Assembly (NCBI GenBank): GCA_019234945.1
Contig: JAFAKX010000050.1
Coordinates: forward strand, 1 to 42,191
DNA length: 42,191 nucleotides
Reading direction: 5' to 3'
Source: Silvibacterium sp.
GTDB lineage: Bacteria > Acidobacteriota > Terriglobia > Terriglobales > Acidobacteriaceae
Both the position numbers and the translations under genes were made by a program. The notes beneath the pieces are model-generated. The model saw only the letters and a program-made list of their open reading frames with translations, was not told the origin of the DNA and searched no databases. Positions 1,478 to 8,692 of the stretch are shown here, piece by piece. How positions within the stretch are numbered: the first letter of the stretch is position 1; each line of letters opens with the position of its first letter.

Positions 1478-3073
1478 ATGGCTACCGTCGCGATCTCCAC
1501 GTCTATCCAGCCACGTTCGCCGCAAGGCGAATTTCGAAACGAACCTTTCACCGACTTTTCCCGGCACGACAACGCCCAGGCGATGAAAGACGCGCTTGTT
1601 CGGGTGGGGGACATGCTCGGTCACGAGTATGAGCTGATCATCGGTGGAGAGCGCTTGCGCACCGCCGCCAAAATCGAATCGCGAAATCCAGCCCGGCCGC
1701 AACAGGTCGTTGGCACTCACCAGAAGGCTGGCGCCGAGCACGCCGACAAGGCGGTGCAGGCGGCCCTCCGCGCATTTGCCAGCTGGCAACATGCACCGAT
1801 TGAGGAGCGGGTCTCGCTTCTCTTGAACGCTGCTCACATTATCCGCACACGCAAGTTCGAGTTTTGCGCCTGGCTCGTCTACGAGGTCGGAAAGAACTGG
1901 GTGGAAGCCGACGCCGATGTCGCCGAGACCATCGATTTTCTGGAGTTTTACTCGCGCGAGGCGTTGCGCCTGGCCGGCGCAACCACTCCGATCCAGTATC
2001 CGGGTGAGCGAAACCAACTCGCATATATTCCGCTCGGCGTGGGCGCTGTCATTCCGCCGTGGAATTTTCCCTTTGCCATCATGGCTGGGATGACGTCGGC
2101 AGCCATCGTCACCGGCAACACGGTGGTGCTCAAGCCATCGAGCGATTCTCCCACGATCGCCGCCAGGTTCATGGACGTTTTGGAAGAAGCTGGTATGCCG
2201 CCGGGCGTCGTCAACTTCTGTCCTGGGTCCGGAGCCACGTTTGGCAACGCGCTGGTACAGCATCCCAAGACGCGCTTTGTGGCCTTCACTGGCTCGAAGG
2301 AGGTTGGACTCGACATCCACGAGCGGGCGGCAAAGACCCAGCCCGGTCAGATCTGGATCAAGCGCACCGTGCTCGAGATGGGCGGCAAGGATTCGATCAT
2401 CGTCTCATCTGACGCCGATCTCGACCAGGCCGTCGAAGGTGTGGTCTCTGCCGCCTTCGGATTCAGCGGACAGAAATGCTCCGCCTGTTCGCGCGCCATT
2501 ATCGAAGAGCCCATTTACGACGTCTTCGTCGATCGCGTTCGGGAGCGGGTGGCGAAACTGACGGTCGGTGATCCGGCGGCGAACCCGAATATGGGGCCTG
2601 TCGTCAACGAAGGCGCGCTCAGGACTGTAATCGATTATGTCGATATCGGAAAGAAAGAGGGCCGCCTGGTCGCGGGGGGCGAACCCATCGACACTCCGGA
2701 GCAAGGATATTTCGTCCAGCCCACCGTAATTGTGGACGTCGCTCCCGACGCCCGCATCTCGCAGGAAGAGATCTTCGGTCCTGTTCTGGCAATCATCAAG
2801 GCCCGCGACTATGACGCGGCACTGGCGATTGCGAATAACACGGAGTTCGGACTGACGGGAGCCGTCTATTCGGCCGATAAGGAAAAGCTCGAGCGCGCGC
2901 GCCGGGAGTTCCACGTCGGAAACCTTTACTTCAATCGCAAATGCACAGGCGCGATGGTCGGCGCGCATCCGTTCGGGGGCTTTAATATGTCCGGAACCGA
3001 CTCTAAGGCCGGCGGCCCTGATTATCTCTACCTATTTACGCAGGCGAAATCTGTTGCTGAGAAGCTCTTGTAA
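1478..3073 (+). CDS. pruA/rocA: L-glutamate gamma-semialdehyde dehydrogenase (1-pyrroline-5-carboxylate dehydrogenase)
   Basis: 531 aa; aldehyde dehydrogenase motifs VIPPWNFPFAI, FTGSKEVG, LEMGGKD, FGFSGQKCSACSR; P5CDH-type N-terminus. Confidence 0.9.
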   Translation: MATVAISTSIQPRSPQGEFRNEPFTDFSRHDNAQAMKDALVRVGDMLGHEYELIIGGERLRTAAKIESRNPARPQQVVGTHQKAGAEHADKAVQAALRAFASWQHAPIEERVSLLLNAAHIIRTRKFEFCAWLVYEVGKNWVEADADVAETIDFLEFYSREALRLAGATTPIQYPGERNQLAYIPLGVGAVIPPWNFPFAIMAGMTSAAIVTGNTVVLKPSSDSPTIAARFMDVLEEAGMPPGVVNFCPGSGATFGNALVQHPKTRFVAFTGSKEVGLDIHERAAKTQPGQIWIKRTVLEMGGKDSIIVSSDADLDQAVEGVVSAAFGFSGQKCSACSRAIIEEPIYDVFVDRVRERVAKLTVGDPAANPNMGPVVNEGALRTVIDYVDIGKKEGRLVAGGEPIDTPEQGYFVQPTVIVDVAPDARISQEEIFGPVLAIIKARDYDAALAIANNTEFGLTGAVYSADKEKLERARREFHVGNLYFNRKCTGAMVGAHPFGGFNMSGTDSKAGGPDYLYLFTQAKSVAEKLL

Positions 3074-3145: not shown

Positions 3146-3532
3146 GTGGAGAGAGTTGTGGCAAAAATTCTATGCGTGGATGACGATCCAGACGTCATTG
3201 CGCTCAAAAGAAGCATTCTGGAACAGGCAGGTTATGAAGTTACGACCTGCATTTCCGCTGAGGATGCCATTCGAGAGATTCAGCGGGTCGCTTTTGATGG
3301 TGTGGTAACCGATTGGCGATTGGGAAGCGAGCGCGGACGTGCGATTGTGGAAGCCGCGAAAGCGCAATCCGCGGTGCCGGTCATAGTTGTTTCCGGATTT
3401 GTTGCTGAAGCTTTCCAGGCGGCCGAGCCGATGGCCGACATCTATCTCGAGAAGCCGGCCGACCCGCGCGAGCTCGTGAAGATCCTGGACACCCTGCTGG
3501 ATACAAAGTCGATCCGCCGCTACGATAGGTAG
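3146..3532 (+). CDS. Single-domain response regulator (REC only)
   Basis: ILCVDDDPD acidic pocket, VVTDWRLG phospho-Asp, VIVVSG and YLEKP switch residues; no output domain. Confidence 0.85.
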   Translation: MERVVAKILCVDDDPDVIALKRSILEQAGYEVTTCISAEDAIREIQRVAFDGVVTDWRLGSERGRAIVEAAKAQSAVPVIVVSGFVAEAFQAAEPMADIYLEKPADPRELVKILDTLLDTKSIRRYDR

Positions 3533-3652: not shown

Positions 3653-4309
3653 CTAGTTCGTCTGCACCATTGTGTCTCCTATCTGGGCCGCAGCCTCGGC
3701 CAGCATTCGGTGGTGGATGGTAAACAGCGCCAGCTCCAGCCGATCGGATACACCTGTTTTGTCGTAAATGCTGCGCAGGTAATTCTTGATTACCTGCTCG
3801 GTTGTCATCAGGCGCATTGCGATTTCCTTGTTCTTGCACCCCTGCACAATCAGCGCGACGATTTTCATCTCCTTGGGAGTAAGCCGGTCACGGACCCGTG
3901 CTCCAACGAGATCCTCTTCAATCACGCCGGTGGGCGTAGCAGGTACGTGAAGGCTGCGTTCGCCGCGTGCGACCCTCCGCACGCAGTCGATCAGCGCCGG
4001 CCCGTTGACAGCCCGATGTACTGCCGCCTGAACGCCGGCGGAGATGAAGGAGGAGGCAGGCTCGGTGTTTTCCGCGATTACGACGGAAAGGCTTCCGTTC
4101 GCGCGAACCCGATCGACCAACTGATGTACGTTCGGTTTCATTGCGGAGGCGAACAGGAGAATCGCTCCTTTGAAAGTGTCTAAAGTTGGAAATAGGCGCT
4201 CCGTTTCGCCACATTGGGCGATGATCCGGAAATCATCTTCCATAGCCAGAACTTTCGCAGTTCCTGCACGGAAGATAGCCTGATTGTCGGCCAGTATTAT
4301 CTTTTTCAT
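3653..4309 (-). CDS. NarL/LuxR-type DNA-binding response regulator with a degenerate receiver domain
   Basis: C-terminal LuxR HTH (LTPKEMKIVALIVQGCKNKEIAMRLMTTEQVIKNYLRSIYDKTGVSDRLELALF). The N-terminal receiver fold lacks the phospho-acceptor Asp (AILLFASAMKPN). Confidence 0.85.
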   Translation of the reverse strand: MKKIILADNQAIFRAGTAKVLAMEDDFRIIAQCGETERLFPTLDTFKGAILLFASAMKPNVHQLVDRVRANGSLSVVIAENTEPASSFISAGVQAAVHRAVNGPALIDCVRRVARGERSLHVPATPTGVIEEDLVGARVRDRLTPKEMKIVALIVQGCKNKEIAMRLMTTEQVIKNYLRSIYDKTGVSDRLELALFTIHHRMLAEAAAQIGDTMVQTN

Positions 4310-4671: not shown

Positions 4672-6324
4672 ATGGCGAAACCAGTCATTCTGGCCATCGA
4701 CGACGACGCGAGTGTGCTTGAGGCAGTCGTTCAGGACCTGCGCCGCAAGTATGGCGCGACATACCGCATCCTGCGGGCGGGCTCCGGCCAGGCCGCCCTC
4801 GACACCTGCGCCCAACTCCAGCAGCGAGGCGACGCTGTTGCCCTGTTTCTCTCCGACCAGCGCATGCCGGGCATGTCTGGCGTCGACCTTCTTGAAAGGG
4901 CACAAAAGCTGTATCCCGAAGCCAAACGTGCCCTTCTCACTGCCTATGCCGATACCGAGGCGGCGATCCGGGCCATCAACACGGCGAAGATCCACTACTA
5001 CCTCACCAAGCCATGGGACCCTCCCGAGGAGCAGCTTTACCCGGTGCTCGATGATCTGCTGGAGGCCTGGAACGAAGGCTACCGCCCTCCCTTCGAGGGC
5101 CTGCGTGTGGTCGGACCCCGCTGGTCTTTGGAGGATCACCTCGTGCGCGAGTTCCTGTCGAGAAACCAGGTTCCGTATGTATGGGTCGATCCCGAGCGCG
5201 ACGGTCAGGCATTCGACCTGCTCGCGCGATACAAGTTGGATGACACCCGGCTCCCGGCGGTGCTTTTCCCGGACGGTGCCGCGTTGGTGCAGCCGACCCA
5301 ACAGGAGCTGGCCGAAAAGATAGGTCTGAGTACGCACGCGACAAGGGAGTACTACGATCTCGTGGTTGTCGGCGGAGGCCCTGCTGGCCTTGGCGCGGCC
5401 GTCTACGGCACCTCCGAAGGGCTGCACACTCTGGTGGTCGAGCCGGAAGCCCCCGGAGGTCAAGCTGCCTCGAGTTCGCGCATCGAGAATTACCTTGGCT
5501 TTCCTTCAGGCCTGAGCGGCGCCGACCTGGCGCGCAGGGCCTATGTGCAGGCCTCGCGCTTCAAGGCTGAATTTCTCACCCAGTGCGTAACCGGTATTCG
5601 CGCACAGAATCAGTACCGGATGGTTCGCACCGGCGACGGACGCGAGATCTCATGCCGCGTGTGCCTCATCGCAACCGGAGTCAATTACCGCCGCCTGGAG
5701 GCGCCCGGGATCGACCAACTGACGGGCAAAGGAGTCTACTATGGGGCGGCGCTGGTCGAAGCGCGTTCCTGCGCGGAGGAAAGGGTGTTCGTTGTCGGTG
5801 GCGCCAATTCGGCCGGCCAGGCCGCCATGCATTTCTCAAAGTATGCCCGGCAGGTCACCATGCTCGTGCGCGCGGAGTCGCTCGAAAAGTCAATGTCGAA
5901 ATATTTAATCGATCAGATTGCGCAAACATCCAATATAACCGTGGAGACGCACTCGCAGGTTGTTGAAGCCATGGGACAAAACCGCCTTGAATGCCTCAAA
6001 ATCCGAAATTCTGGCGGAGAGGAGGTTCGGCCAGCTGCCGGGCTGTTTATTTTCATTGGGGCGGCGCCGACCACCGAATGGCTACCTGCGGAGATTATGC
6101 GCGATCCTAACGGATTTATCCTCTCGGGCTCCGACCTCAAGGTGGAAAACAAGCTTCCACGCGTTTGGAAGGAAGAACGCGAGCCGTTCTTGCTGGAGAC
6201 CAGCATGTCCGGGGTGTTTGTGGCGGGTGACGTAAGACACGGCTCGGTAAAGCGTGTGGCATCAGCCGTCGGCGAGGGCTCGATCGCCGTGCAGTTCATG
6301 CATCAATATCTGGCACGTTTTTAG
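4672..6324 (+). CDS. Fused response regulator receiver / glutaredoxin-like linker / thioredoxin-reductase-like FAD-dependent oxidoreductase
   Basis: REC: AIDDDAS, LFLSDQRMPGMSG, LLTAY, YYLTKPW. TrxR-like: VVVGGGPAGLGAAVYGTSEG, EPEAPGGQAASSSRIENYLGFP, CLIATGVNYRRL, VFVVGGANSAGQAAMHF, GVFVAGDVRHGSVKRVASAVGEGSIAV. Confidence 0.9.
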   Translation: MAKPVILAIDDDASVLEAVVQDLRRKYGATYRILRAGSGQAALDTCAQLQQRGDAVALFLSDQRMPGMSGVDLLERAQKLYPEAKRALLTAYADTEAAIRAINTAKIHYYLTKPWDPPEEQLYPVLDDLLEAWNEGYRPPFEGLRVVGPRWSLEDHLVREFLSRNQVPYVWVDPERDGQAFDLLARYKLDDTRLPAVLFPDGAALVQPTQQELAEKIGLSTHATREYYDLVVVGGGPAGLGAAVYGTSEGLHTLVVEPEAPGGQAASSSRIENYLGFPSGLSGADLARRAYVQASRFKAEFLTQCVTGIRAQNQYRMVRTGDGREISCRVCLIATGVNYRRLEAPGIDQLTGKGVYYGAALVEARSCAEERVFVVGGANSAGQAAMHFSKYARQVTMLVRAESLEKSMSKYLIDQIAQTSNITVETHSQVVEAMGQNRLECLKIRNSGGEEVRPAAGLFIFIGAAPTTEWLPAEIMRDPNGFILSGSDLKVENKLPRVWKEEREPFLLETSMSGVFVAGDVRHGSVKRVASAVGEGSIAVQFMHQYLARF

Positions 6325-7781
6325 TGACGGGAAAAAACGAATCGATGGAAGCAAACCAAAGCAAGCTGAACACAAGAACCATTTCAGCGCGAGAACTGCT
6401 CGCGCAAGTTCAAGAAATACCCATCTTTCATCAGAGCAGGGAGCAGGATCTCGACTGTCTCGAAGACGTAGAGCTGGTCGATGTACCGGCGGGTGCCCTG
6501 CTCTTTGATCGCGGCGACAAAGAGATCTTCTTCTGGATACTGCTTTCTGGTGAAGTGCGCGTCGCCAAGCCTGAAGACGACGGCGGCCGCACGCTGCTTC
6601 TCACGCTCAAATCGGGCGACACGTTCGGGGAGGTTCCGCTTCTGACTGGAATCCCTGCCGCGCCTGCTCGCGGCGAAGTTATGCAGGCAAGCAGGCTGGT
6701 ACGTATCAGCCCTGAGTCTTTCTGGAGCCTGATGGGAACCTGTCCCGTTGTCCGCTCCGGCATTCTGTCGAACATGGGGCGGCGTCTCGAAGTCTACCAG
6801 GCGCTCACGCTTCATCGGGAGAAGCTCATCTCGCTCGGCACTTTGGCTGCTGGCCTGATGCACGAACTGAACAACCCCGGCACCGCTGCCCGGCGTGCCT
6901 CTGCACAGTTGCGGGAGAATCTGGTTTGCTTGCAGCAAATAAGTCTGCGCCTCAGCCGCGCCCCGCTTACTCCCGAGCAGAAAGACTGCATGCGCGACCT
7001 GCAGGAAATGGCGTTGAAGTGCGACAAGCCTGTGGTCATGAACACGCTCGACCAGGCCGACATGGAGGAGGAACTGCTGAGCTGGCTCGAGGGCATCGGC
7101 GTCGAGCACGCGGAACAGATCGCTCCTACACTGGCTTCTGTTGGCTGGCACCGCGAAGACATCGAGTGTGCTCGGTCCGCCTTTACCGCGGAGTTGTTCT
7201 CCGACGCGCTCAACTGGCTCACGGCGCTTCTTTCCAGCATGCAACTGGTTGGCACAATTGAAGAGAGCATTGCGCGCGTTACCGACCTCGTCATAGCGGT
7301 CAAGAAATACGCCTACGACGACAAGAATCGAGAGCGCGAAATCGACATACACGACAGCATCCAGAGCACATTGACGATTCTGGCTCACAAATTCCGCCAC
7401 AAGCAGATCGCCATCGAAAAGCGCTTTGCTCCCGAAATGCCTAGGGTCAAGACAAAAGGCGCCGGGCTGAGCCAGGTGTGGACCAATATCCTCGATAACG
7501 CCATCGACGCCTCGCCGGAGCAGGGAAAGATTGTCATCCGCACGTGGACGGAAAACGGAAATGCGTGCATCGGAATCGCCGATCAGGGGCCGGGCGTTCC
7601 TCCTGAACACCGGGAGCAGATCTTTGATCCATTCTTCACCACCAAGCCCGCAGGCGTGGGCACCGGCCTTGGATTGGACATTGCGCAACGAATCATCGTG
7701 GGTCAGTTTGGCGGCAGCATCACCTTCACCTCCGACCCCGGAAACACAGAGTTCGTCGTCAGGGTACCCGCCGAAGATTGA
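6324..7781 (+). CDS. Sensor histidine kinase with N-terminal cyclic-nucleotide-binding-like (CRP fold) domain
   Basis: GTG start overlaps the previous stop (TAGTG). CRP-like region IPIFHQS...DRGDKEIFFWILLSGEVRV...LKSGDTFGEVPLL; H-box SLGTLAAGLMHELNNP; HATPase NILDNAIDAS, IADQGPGVPPEHREQIFDPFFTTK, GTGLGLDIAQRI. Confidence 0.9.
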   Translation: MTGKNESMEANQSKLNTRTISARELLAQVQEIPIFHQSREQDLDCLEDVELVDVPAGALLFDRGDKEIFFWILLSGEVRVAKPEDDGGRTLLLTLKSGDTFGEVPLLTGIPAAPARGEVMQASRLVRISPESFWSLMGTCPVVRSGILSNMGRRLEVYQALTLHREKLISLGTLAAGLMHELNNPGTAARRASAQLRENLVCLQQISLRLSRAPLTPEQKDCMRDLQEMALKCDKPVVMNTLDQADMEEELLSWLEGIGVEHAEQIAPTLASVGWHREDIECARSAFTAELFSDALNWLTALLSSMQLVGTIEESIARVTDLVIAVKKYAYDDKNREREIDIHDSIQSTLTILAHKFRHKQIAIEKRFAPEMPRVKTKGAGLSQVWTNILDNAIDASPEQGKIVIRTWTENGNACIGIADQGPGVPPEHREQIFDPFFTTKPAGVGTGLGLDIAQRIIVGQFGGSITFTSDPGNTEFVVRVPAED

Positions 7782-7912
7782 TCCGAGCACTTGCTGACGC
7801 GCTTCCTATGAATGCCGGGAGACTGTTTGCAGCCCCAGTACAGCCCCTTTCGTCTCTCGCGCGCTTTTCCGTACACTAATGGGTAAATTCTCTCGAAAGC
7901 GAGTTCCCGCCT

Positions 7913-8692
7913 TTGGCCCGTCAGCTTTACACCGCTTATGTCGATCGGAAGCTCCTGCTGTCGGAGCCAGCCCAGTGCTTCCATCTCGAGTTTTCCGTTC
8001 CGGAACTCGAGAAATTCGACTTCATTCCCGGCCAGTTTGTCTCGACCGTTGCTCCTGACCCGAACGGCAAACAGCAAACGCGCGCCTACTCGATTGCTTC
8101 GGCTCCGCGGGGGAACAAATTCGACCTCTGCGTGAATCGCGTCGAGGGCGGATTCTTCTCCAACCTGCTTTGCGATCTCGAGCCGGGCGACAAAGTTGAG
8201 TTCCATGGTCCGCACGGGCTTTTTACCCTTCGCCAGCCGTTTACGGATAGCGTTTTCATCGCCACCGGAACCGGCATTGCGCCGATGCTTGCCTTCGTGC
8301 AGCATCTTTTTCCGGACAATGGAGAAGACCGCAGCAACAGCCGCGACATCTGGCTCGTCTACGGAACACGCTACGAGACCGAAATCTATTATCAGAAATA
8401 TTTCGAGAGGATAGCCGCCGAGCGGCACAACTTCCGCTACGTCTCAACGCTGAGCCGAGCCAAAGAAGGCTGGGAGGGCCTGCGCGGATATGTGCAGGAT
8501 CACGTTGCGCGCATCCTCGATCAGCGTGATTCATTGAACCATTCAGGGGCCTTGCCGACGGCCGCCGAAGGCACAGGGTTCGACATCCACGCCTATATCT
8601 GCGGGCTCAACGACATGGTGTCCGGCAACCGCGACCGGCTCACCGAGCGCGGATGGCAGCGTAAGCAGATCATCTTCGAGCGCTACGACTAG
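7913..8692 (+). CDS. Ferredoxin--NADP reductase-like FAD/NAD(P)-binding oxidoreductase
   Basis: RAYSIASAP FAD motif, FIATGTGIAPMLAF NAD(P) motif, terminal YICGLNDMV...IIFERYD. TTG start as called in the ORF track. Confidence 0.85.
   Translation: MARQLYTAYVDRKLLLSEPAQCFHLEFSVPELEKFDFIPGQFVSTVAPDPNGKQQTRAYSIASAPRGNKFDLCVNRVEGGFFSNLLCDLEPGDKVEFHGPHGLFTLRQPFTDSVFIATGTGIAPMLAFVQHLFPDNGEDRSNSRDIWLVYGTRYETEIYYQKYFERIAAERHNFRYVSTLSRAKEGWEGLRGYVQDHVARILDQRDSLNHSGALPTAAEGTGFDIHAYICGLNDMVSGNRDRLTERGWQRKQIIFERYD

Follow-up and report, generated by a model that had tools for sequence, protein, structure and literature searches.

A putative two-component module with a cysteine-free, thioredoxin reductase-like flavoprotein as output in Silvibacterium sp.

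Proteins that join a receiver (REC) domain to a thioredoxin reductase (TrxR)-like flavoprotein have been mentioned as Mycobacterium-like response regulators (Galperin et al. 2018, PMC5847659) and go by the name 'fused response regulator/thioredoxin-disulfide reductase'. We examined such a protein, and the sensor histidine kinase gene beside it, in Silvibacterium sp. on contig JAFAKX010000050.1 of assembly GCA_019234945.1, the whole 42,191 nucleotides of which are referred to here as the window. The protein shares its domain order with the named group and is a member of it by architecture; the name, however, implies a disulphide reductase, whereas the family examined here lacks CxxC motifs throughout. 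An earlier sequence-only reading of the window had suspected that such fusions already existed in databases, and this proved to be the case, as annotated records of members were also found, listed as 'FAD-dependent oxidoreductase' with a neighbouring 'ATP-binding protein'. The open literature searched yielded no functional work on the fusion. From comparative sequence analysis it appears reasonably probable that the two genes form a two-component module in which the output of the response regulator is a cysteine-free flavoprotein.

Burroughs, Iyer and Aravind reportedly proposed in 2011 a redox signalling system that depends on cyclic nucleotides and includes bacterial ZF-UBP domains. The reference list of PMC4506424 carries the title of that paper (Mol BioSyst 7:2261, doi 10.1039/c1mb05061c). 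A cNMP-fold domain, a TrxR-like protein and a UBP-type zinc finger do lie side by side in other lineages examined here; the window differs in that its zinc finger is not adjacent (it is found on contig C181) and in that input would arrive through a kinase and a REC domain. The cis cNMP-TrxR fusions ('thioredoxin-disulfide reductase', cyclic nucleotide-binding domain-containing) consist of homologous glutaredoxin-fold and flavoprotein modules and also lack CxxC (32/32), but they carry a CRP-fold input in cis instead of REC and fall on separate tree branches. The low-molecular-weight thioredoxin reductases (e.g. 5mh4, 7jyp, E. coli TrxB) have their fold and their FAD and NAD(P) motifs in common with the window flavoprotein, which in contrast has no CxxC and is extended by REC and glutaredoxin-fold domains. 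Both the architecture and the class of system were already known; new here are the loss of both CxxC sites across the family, a dedicated family of kinases with an insertion in the DHp domain, and the exclusion of a neighbouring FNR-like gene.

The fusion protein and its cysteine-less flavoprotein

Three open reading frames (ORFs) are found on one strand of the window, at 4672-6324, 6324-7781 and 7913-8692, in agreement with the three same-strand genes of the sequence-only reading. Above the gathering scores, Pfam matched the first ORF to Response_reg and Pyr_redox_2, the second to cNMP_binding and HATPase_c, and the third to FAD_binding_6 and NAD_binding_1. The ORF list, Pfam, an AlphaFold model and homologues together describe the first gene product (4672..6324, + strand) as a 550-aa fusion of REC, a degenerate glutaredoxin-fold domain and a TrxR-like flavoprotein. 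In the model, which has a mean predicted local distance difference test (pLDDT) score of 82, REC covers residues 1-136, a small middle domain residues 144-217, and the TrxR-like domain residues 227-548. Full-length homologues with all three parts (~49-81% identity) were found at 80 loci in other genomes and phyla. These phyla number about a dozen and include Acidobacteriota, Cyanobacteriota, Bacteroidota, Chloroflexota, Actinomycetota, Deinococcota, Verrucomicrobiota, Gemmatimonadota and proteobacteria, among others; one homologue came from an archaeal metagenome-assembled genome (MAG; Nitrososphaeraceae). At locus L041 of genome G121 the fusion is without a REC domain though the kinase is present, which reflects either a real loss or a sequencing error.

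The REC domain (residues 1-133; 4672..5070, + strand) scored 54.7 bits against PF00072 (cut-off 30.2). Its residues D10, D11, D62, T90 and K113 were invariant in 125/125 REC-type sequences, so that the predicted phospho-switch, with its phospho-acceptor D62 at codon 4855-4857 and K113 at codon 5008-5010 (+ strand), is under strong constraint. The window fusion thus has what defines a response regulator, namely a PF00072 match above cut-off, an acidic pocket, a phospho-Asp, a Thr/Ser and a Lys, and the earlier statement that the receiver keeps its Asp, Thr and Lys is correct.

The TrxR-like FAD/NAD(P)H domain (residues 227-550; 5350..6321, + strand; PF07992 E 3e-34) contains an FAD motif, GGGPAG, at about residues 233-239 and an NAD(P) motif, GGANSAGQ, at residues 376-383. 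Both are invariant in the fusion alignment, and on this basis the protein is predicted to bind FAD and NAD(P)H. Its closest similarity is to thioredoxin reductases (phmmer E 1e-41), and Foldseek matched it to the TrxR 5mh4 (FR conformation) with a TM-score (TMt) of 0.86. The CxxC site, however, is replaced in the alignment by YYGAALVEA (~5737-5766, + strand). The CxxC motif is missing from 124/124 REC-type and 32/32 cNMP-type sequences (156/156 relatives), a conserved YYGAA-like motif standing in its place, and is present in the positive controls, namely four canonical TrxRs from Acidobacteriota and the glutaredoxin-TrxR fusion at locus L054. The NCBIfam model TRX_reduct (TIGR01292) gave 207 bits, below its cut-off of 343, and no cysteine column of the fusion alignment is invariant.

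The second lost dithiol site lies in the middle domain, on which the sequence-only reading was silent. This thioredoxin/glutaredoxin-fold domain (residues 144-217; 5101..5322, + strand) has a beta-alpha-beta-alpha-beta-beta-alpha secondary structure in the AlphaFold model and is 36.6% identical (E 2e-15) to the glutaredoxin domain of L054, which itself matches PF00462. It is cysteine-less in the window, where W151-S-L-E-D155 (WSLED; 5122-5136, + strand) aligns to WCPDC of L054; among the 124 REC-type sequences none has the first cysteine and six have the second. The alignments indicate that both dithiol sites are lost family-wide while the cofactor sites are retained. A working thioredoxin reductase was rejected on the missing CxxC, and the usual database label of thioredoxin reductase is probably wrong for the fusion. 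The earlier description of a whole thioredoxin reductase-like flavoprotein therefore stands for the fold and fails for the catalytic site. As a separate observation, the TrxR-like domain was matched (window 4672-6321, E 4e-62) by phrog_6397, a family that bears the label 'ribonucleotide reductase large subunit' and is probably mislabelled.

A tree of the flavoprotein domain placed all cysteine-less members in one clade (Shimodaira-Hasegawa-like approximate likelihood ratio test (SH-aLRT) 100), separate from L054 and the canonical reductases. The L054 protein (L054:5386-6678, - strand), a glutaredoxin-TrxR fusion with both CxxC motifs, branches next to this clade and is a good model of its ancestral state. 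TrxR-like ferredoxin/flavodoxin-NADP+ reductases also have the TrxR fold without CxxC. Those compared here (3ab1, 3lzw, 5xhu) showed a much weaker and partial similarity to the window flavoprotein (E 1e-15 or worse), and the CxxC loss looks independent of theirs, since the family branches beside the CxxC-bearing L054. When members were labelled on the tree by input domain, REC or cNMP-fold, two changes sufficed; one flavoprotein has thus been coupled to a CRP-fold domain in cis or, via REC, to a CRP-fold kinase.

The histidine kinase and its pairing with the fusion

The second gene (+ strand) was recognised as a sensor histidine kinase from its ORF, Pfam matches, alignment and adjacency. The one-nucleotide overlap with the fusion gene (TAGTG) described in the sequence-only reading requires the kinase to begin at GTG 6324. 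The equivalent GTG lies out of the kinase frame in L197, the nearest relative (fusion 91% identical), where the in-frame ATG at 6345 (ATGGAAG...) is kept, and in other congeners the gap between the two genes ranges from ~20 to >100 bp. The kinase start is therefore most likely the conserved ATG at 6345, giving a protein of 478 aa (6345..7781); GTG 6324 as the true start, with translational overlap, is unlikely. The two genes are probably adjacent and not overlapping, contrary to the earlier description.

The description of this protein as a histidine kinase with a CRP-like N-terminus is well founded. The CRP-like (cNMP-fold) sensor domain (6480..6737, + strand) scored 51.7 bits against PF00027 (cut-off 27.5), the HATPase_c catalytic domain (7461..7775, + strand) matched PF02518 (E 4e-25), and the H, N, G1, F and G2 motifs are conserved (H-box HELNNP, NILDNAID, DxGxG, FDPFFTTK and GTGLGL, respectively). 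The H-box provides the predicted phospho-acceptor, His173 in ATG numbering (codon 6861-6863, + strand). In the kinase model the DHp helices span residues 134-205 and 282-327 with four helices between them; this helical insertion of ~75 residues (~206-281; 6960..7187, + strand), seen in both alignment and model, is a hallmark of the kinase family. PF00512 HisKA gave no score for the window kinase, which is consistent with the DHp insertion. The phosphate-binding cassette of the CRP-like domain is non-canonical (FGEVPLLTGIPAAPARGE) and lacks the Arg-Ser/Thr-Ala motif, which was present in only 2-3/130 kinases and at most 1/31 cis fusions. Cyclic nucleotide sensing is therefore not to be assumed, and canonical cAMP sensing by the kinase is unsupported.

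The kinase gene is adjacent to the REC-type fusion gene, upstream or downstream, in 33/33 Acidobacteriota loci, and lies within ~5 kb of it in 67/79 loci from about a dozen phyla, again in both gene orders; a further locus beyond these 67, L113, ends inside a kinase gene. Full-length family kinases were counted in a sample of 297 Acidobacteriota genomes and occurred in 34/34 genomes with the fusion as opposed to 4/263 without it (Fisher p ~1e-40, uncorrected for shared descent). In one of the four exceptions, G188, the kinase and a zf-UBP gene lie at a contig end, by which the fusion may have been cut off. The kinase-receiver pairing proposed in the sequence-only reading would have been refuted by a lack of co-occurrence elsewhere, and it survived this neighbourhood check. 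Conserved neighbourhood and co-occurrence strongly support the kinase as a dedicated partner of the fusion.

The 34 fusion genomes hold 67 full-length family kinases, and no receiver gene was found beside the extra kinases that were inspected, a pattern that would fit the convergence of several sensors on a single regulator. Extra CRP-fold/DHp-insert kinases lacking an adjacent receiver gene were seen at L178, L182-L185, L188 and L189, and G036 has up to four family kinases and one fusion. Two or three family kinases occur in or near tandem with a single fusion at L102 (6652-10915), L115, L097 and L142 (Rubrobacteraceae, Meiothermus and cyanobacteria). In two Acidobacteriota genomes without the fusion, G021 and G005, divergent ~276-bit kinases are found beside a REC/kinase-like ORF (L186:4767-8705 and L187:1732-5450).

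Proposed mechanism and alternatives

Based on these observations, we propose that the kinase senses a cytosolic cue via its CRP-fold domain and, as its conserved motifs suggest, would autophosphorylate on His173 of the H-E-L-N-N-P box. The phosphoryl group would then pass to Asp62 of the fusion REC domain, as pairing and conservation suggest, and the attached FAD/NAD(P)H protein may respond to phosphorylation by a change in activity, in conformation or in the partners that it binds. This flavoprotein is predicted to be a thioredoxin reductase descendant in which the usual dithiol relay of electrons to thioredoxin is impossible because both disulphide sites are lost. Electrons from NAD(P)H could instead go to a non-thiol acceptor, or the flavoprotein could serve as a binding partner dependent on its NAD(P)H/FAD state, in which case the protein bound would probably be the small UBP-type zinc-finger protein that is adjacent in other lineages. 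The kinase/REC pair would resemble a trans version of the input domain that is fused in cis in the paralogues. The sequence-only reading had proposed redox catalysis in place of transcription as the output; a flavoprotein rather than a DNA-binding output is upheld, while catalysis of the disulphide or thioredoxin type is unsupported, since the whole family has lost the two CxxC sites.

Several points weigh against this proposal. A conserved neighbourhood is not proof of phosphotransfer. Covariation between REC and the histidine kinase (HK) was weakly enriched on the REC side at positions 14, 17, 20 and 21 of helix alpha1, but the scores were no higher than the TR-HK background at an effective number of sequences (Neff) of ~67. 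The FAD-loop region of the fusion model is of low confidence, the zf-UBP gene is not beside the module in the window (the sole PF02148 match of the genome is at C181:1851-2045, on another contig), and control may run from REC to flavoprotein or from flavoprotein to REC.

The reverse direction of control is the basis of one alternative, which we regard as unlikely, namely that the flavoprotein is the sensor: the redox state of its FAD/NAD(P)H would tune REC phosphorylation, and the fusion would serve as a phosphate sink or as redox feedback on the kinase. Conserved cofactor motifs together with lost catalytic cysteines would suit a module that binds or senses, the several kinases per fusion would fit a shared sink, and a receiver with a redox cofactor that feeds back on its kinase is known in the form of an Fe-S receiver protein (PMC7078487). 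In the paralogues, however, a CRP-fold domain stands where REC would be, with no REC or kinase in cis, and the simplest reading of this is that of alternative inputs to a common output.

It is distinctly improbable that kinase and fusion are merely inherited together and act mainly on other partners, with the kinase working, for instance, as a phosphatase or signalling to several receivers. Many genomes do have extra kinases away from the fusion, and some cyanobacterial fusion loci have no kinase within 5 kb, but the near-obligate co-occurrence, the adjacency across about a dozen phyla and the finding that no other receiver gene adjoins the extra kinases inspected argue against it. A true reductase of thioredoxin or of another disulphide under the control of phosphorylation, as implied by the database name and favoured by the fold and overall similarity to TrxR, is hardly tenable given the CxxC motifs missing from the flavoprotein and the glutaredoxin-fold domain alike (with positive controls), the low TRX_reduct score and the lack of any invariant cysteine column.

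The third gene of the window (7913..8692, + strand) encodes an FNR-like flavin reductase, which the sequence-only reading had put forward as a possible electron partner. It starts 131 bp after the kinase stop codon, close to the 130 bp given there, and the same three-gene layout is repeated only in G300, a 91%-identical sister genome. A three-gene redox cassette in which this reductase gives or takes electrons is nevertheless highly improbable: an FNR-like homologue adjoins the fusion in 0/114 related loci, the two genes lie on different contigs in the congeners G139, G301 and G303, and no reductase was found to recur beside the module in other phyla. We therefore rejected the FNR-like gene as a module partner; it is a local neighbour outside the conserved module.

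Other neighbouring genes and significance of the family

Across 90 loci from different phyla the only recurring neighbours of the fusion were the kinase and, less often, the small UBP-type zinc finger; glgX, AGE epimerase and low-temperature-requirement A genes were found at few loci, mostly cyanobacterial. The zf-UBP gene was adjacent in 16/79 cross-phylum loci and 2/33 Acidobacteriota loci, and in Tsukamurella and Streptomyces plasmids the annotation places it immediately behind the kinase.

On the other side of the module, a divergent LuxR-type gene with a degenerate receiver (3653..4309, - strand; PF00196) is a conserved neighbour in Acidobacteriaceae only. The phospho-Asp of its receiver is absent in 27/27 orthologues, and it is a possible phosphorylation-independent transcriptional regulator of the module. 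A P5C dehydrogenase gene and a lone receiver gene (window 1478-3073 and 3146-3532) also show synteny with the module in Acidobacteriaceae, the receiver gene in fewer genomes (e.g. L071, L072).

Taken more broadly, and tentatively, the fusion would represent a widespread class of regulator in which dedicated CRP-fold, DHp-insert kinases, often several per regulator, gate a thiol-free NAD(P)H/FAD output, either non-disulphide chemistry or a flavin-state-dependent binding switch, and in which this arrangement is evolutionarily interchangeable with CRP-fold control in cis. The module occurs in about a dozen phyla of bacteria and in one MAG of an archaeon and is often named 'thioredoxin reductase', a name that its sequence contradicts. 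It is a rare clean example of a two-component system with an output of metabolic or flavin-based appearance in place of a DNA-binding one; it has a kinase family of its own, and the cis-wired paralogue is a natural control. With a corrected name and its real partners, its function becomes testable.

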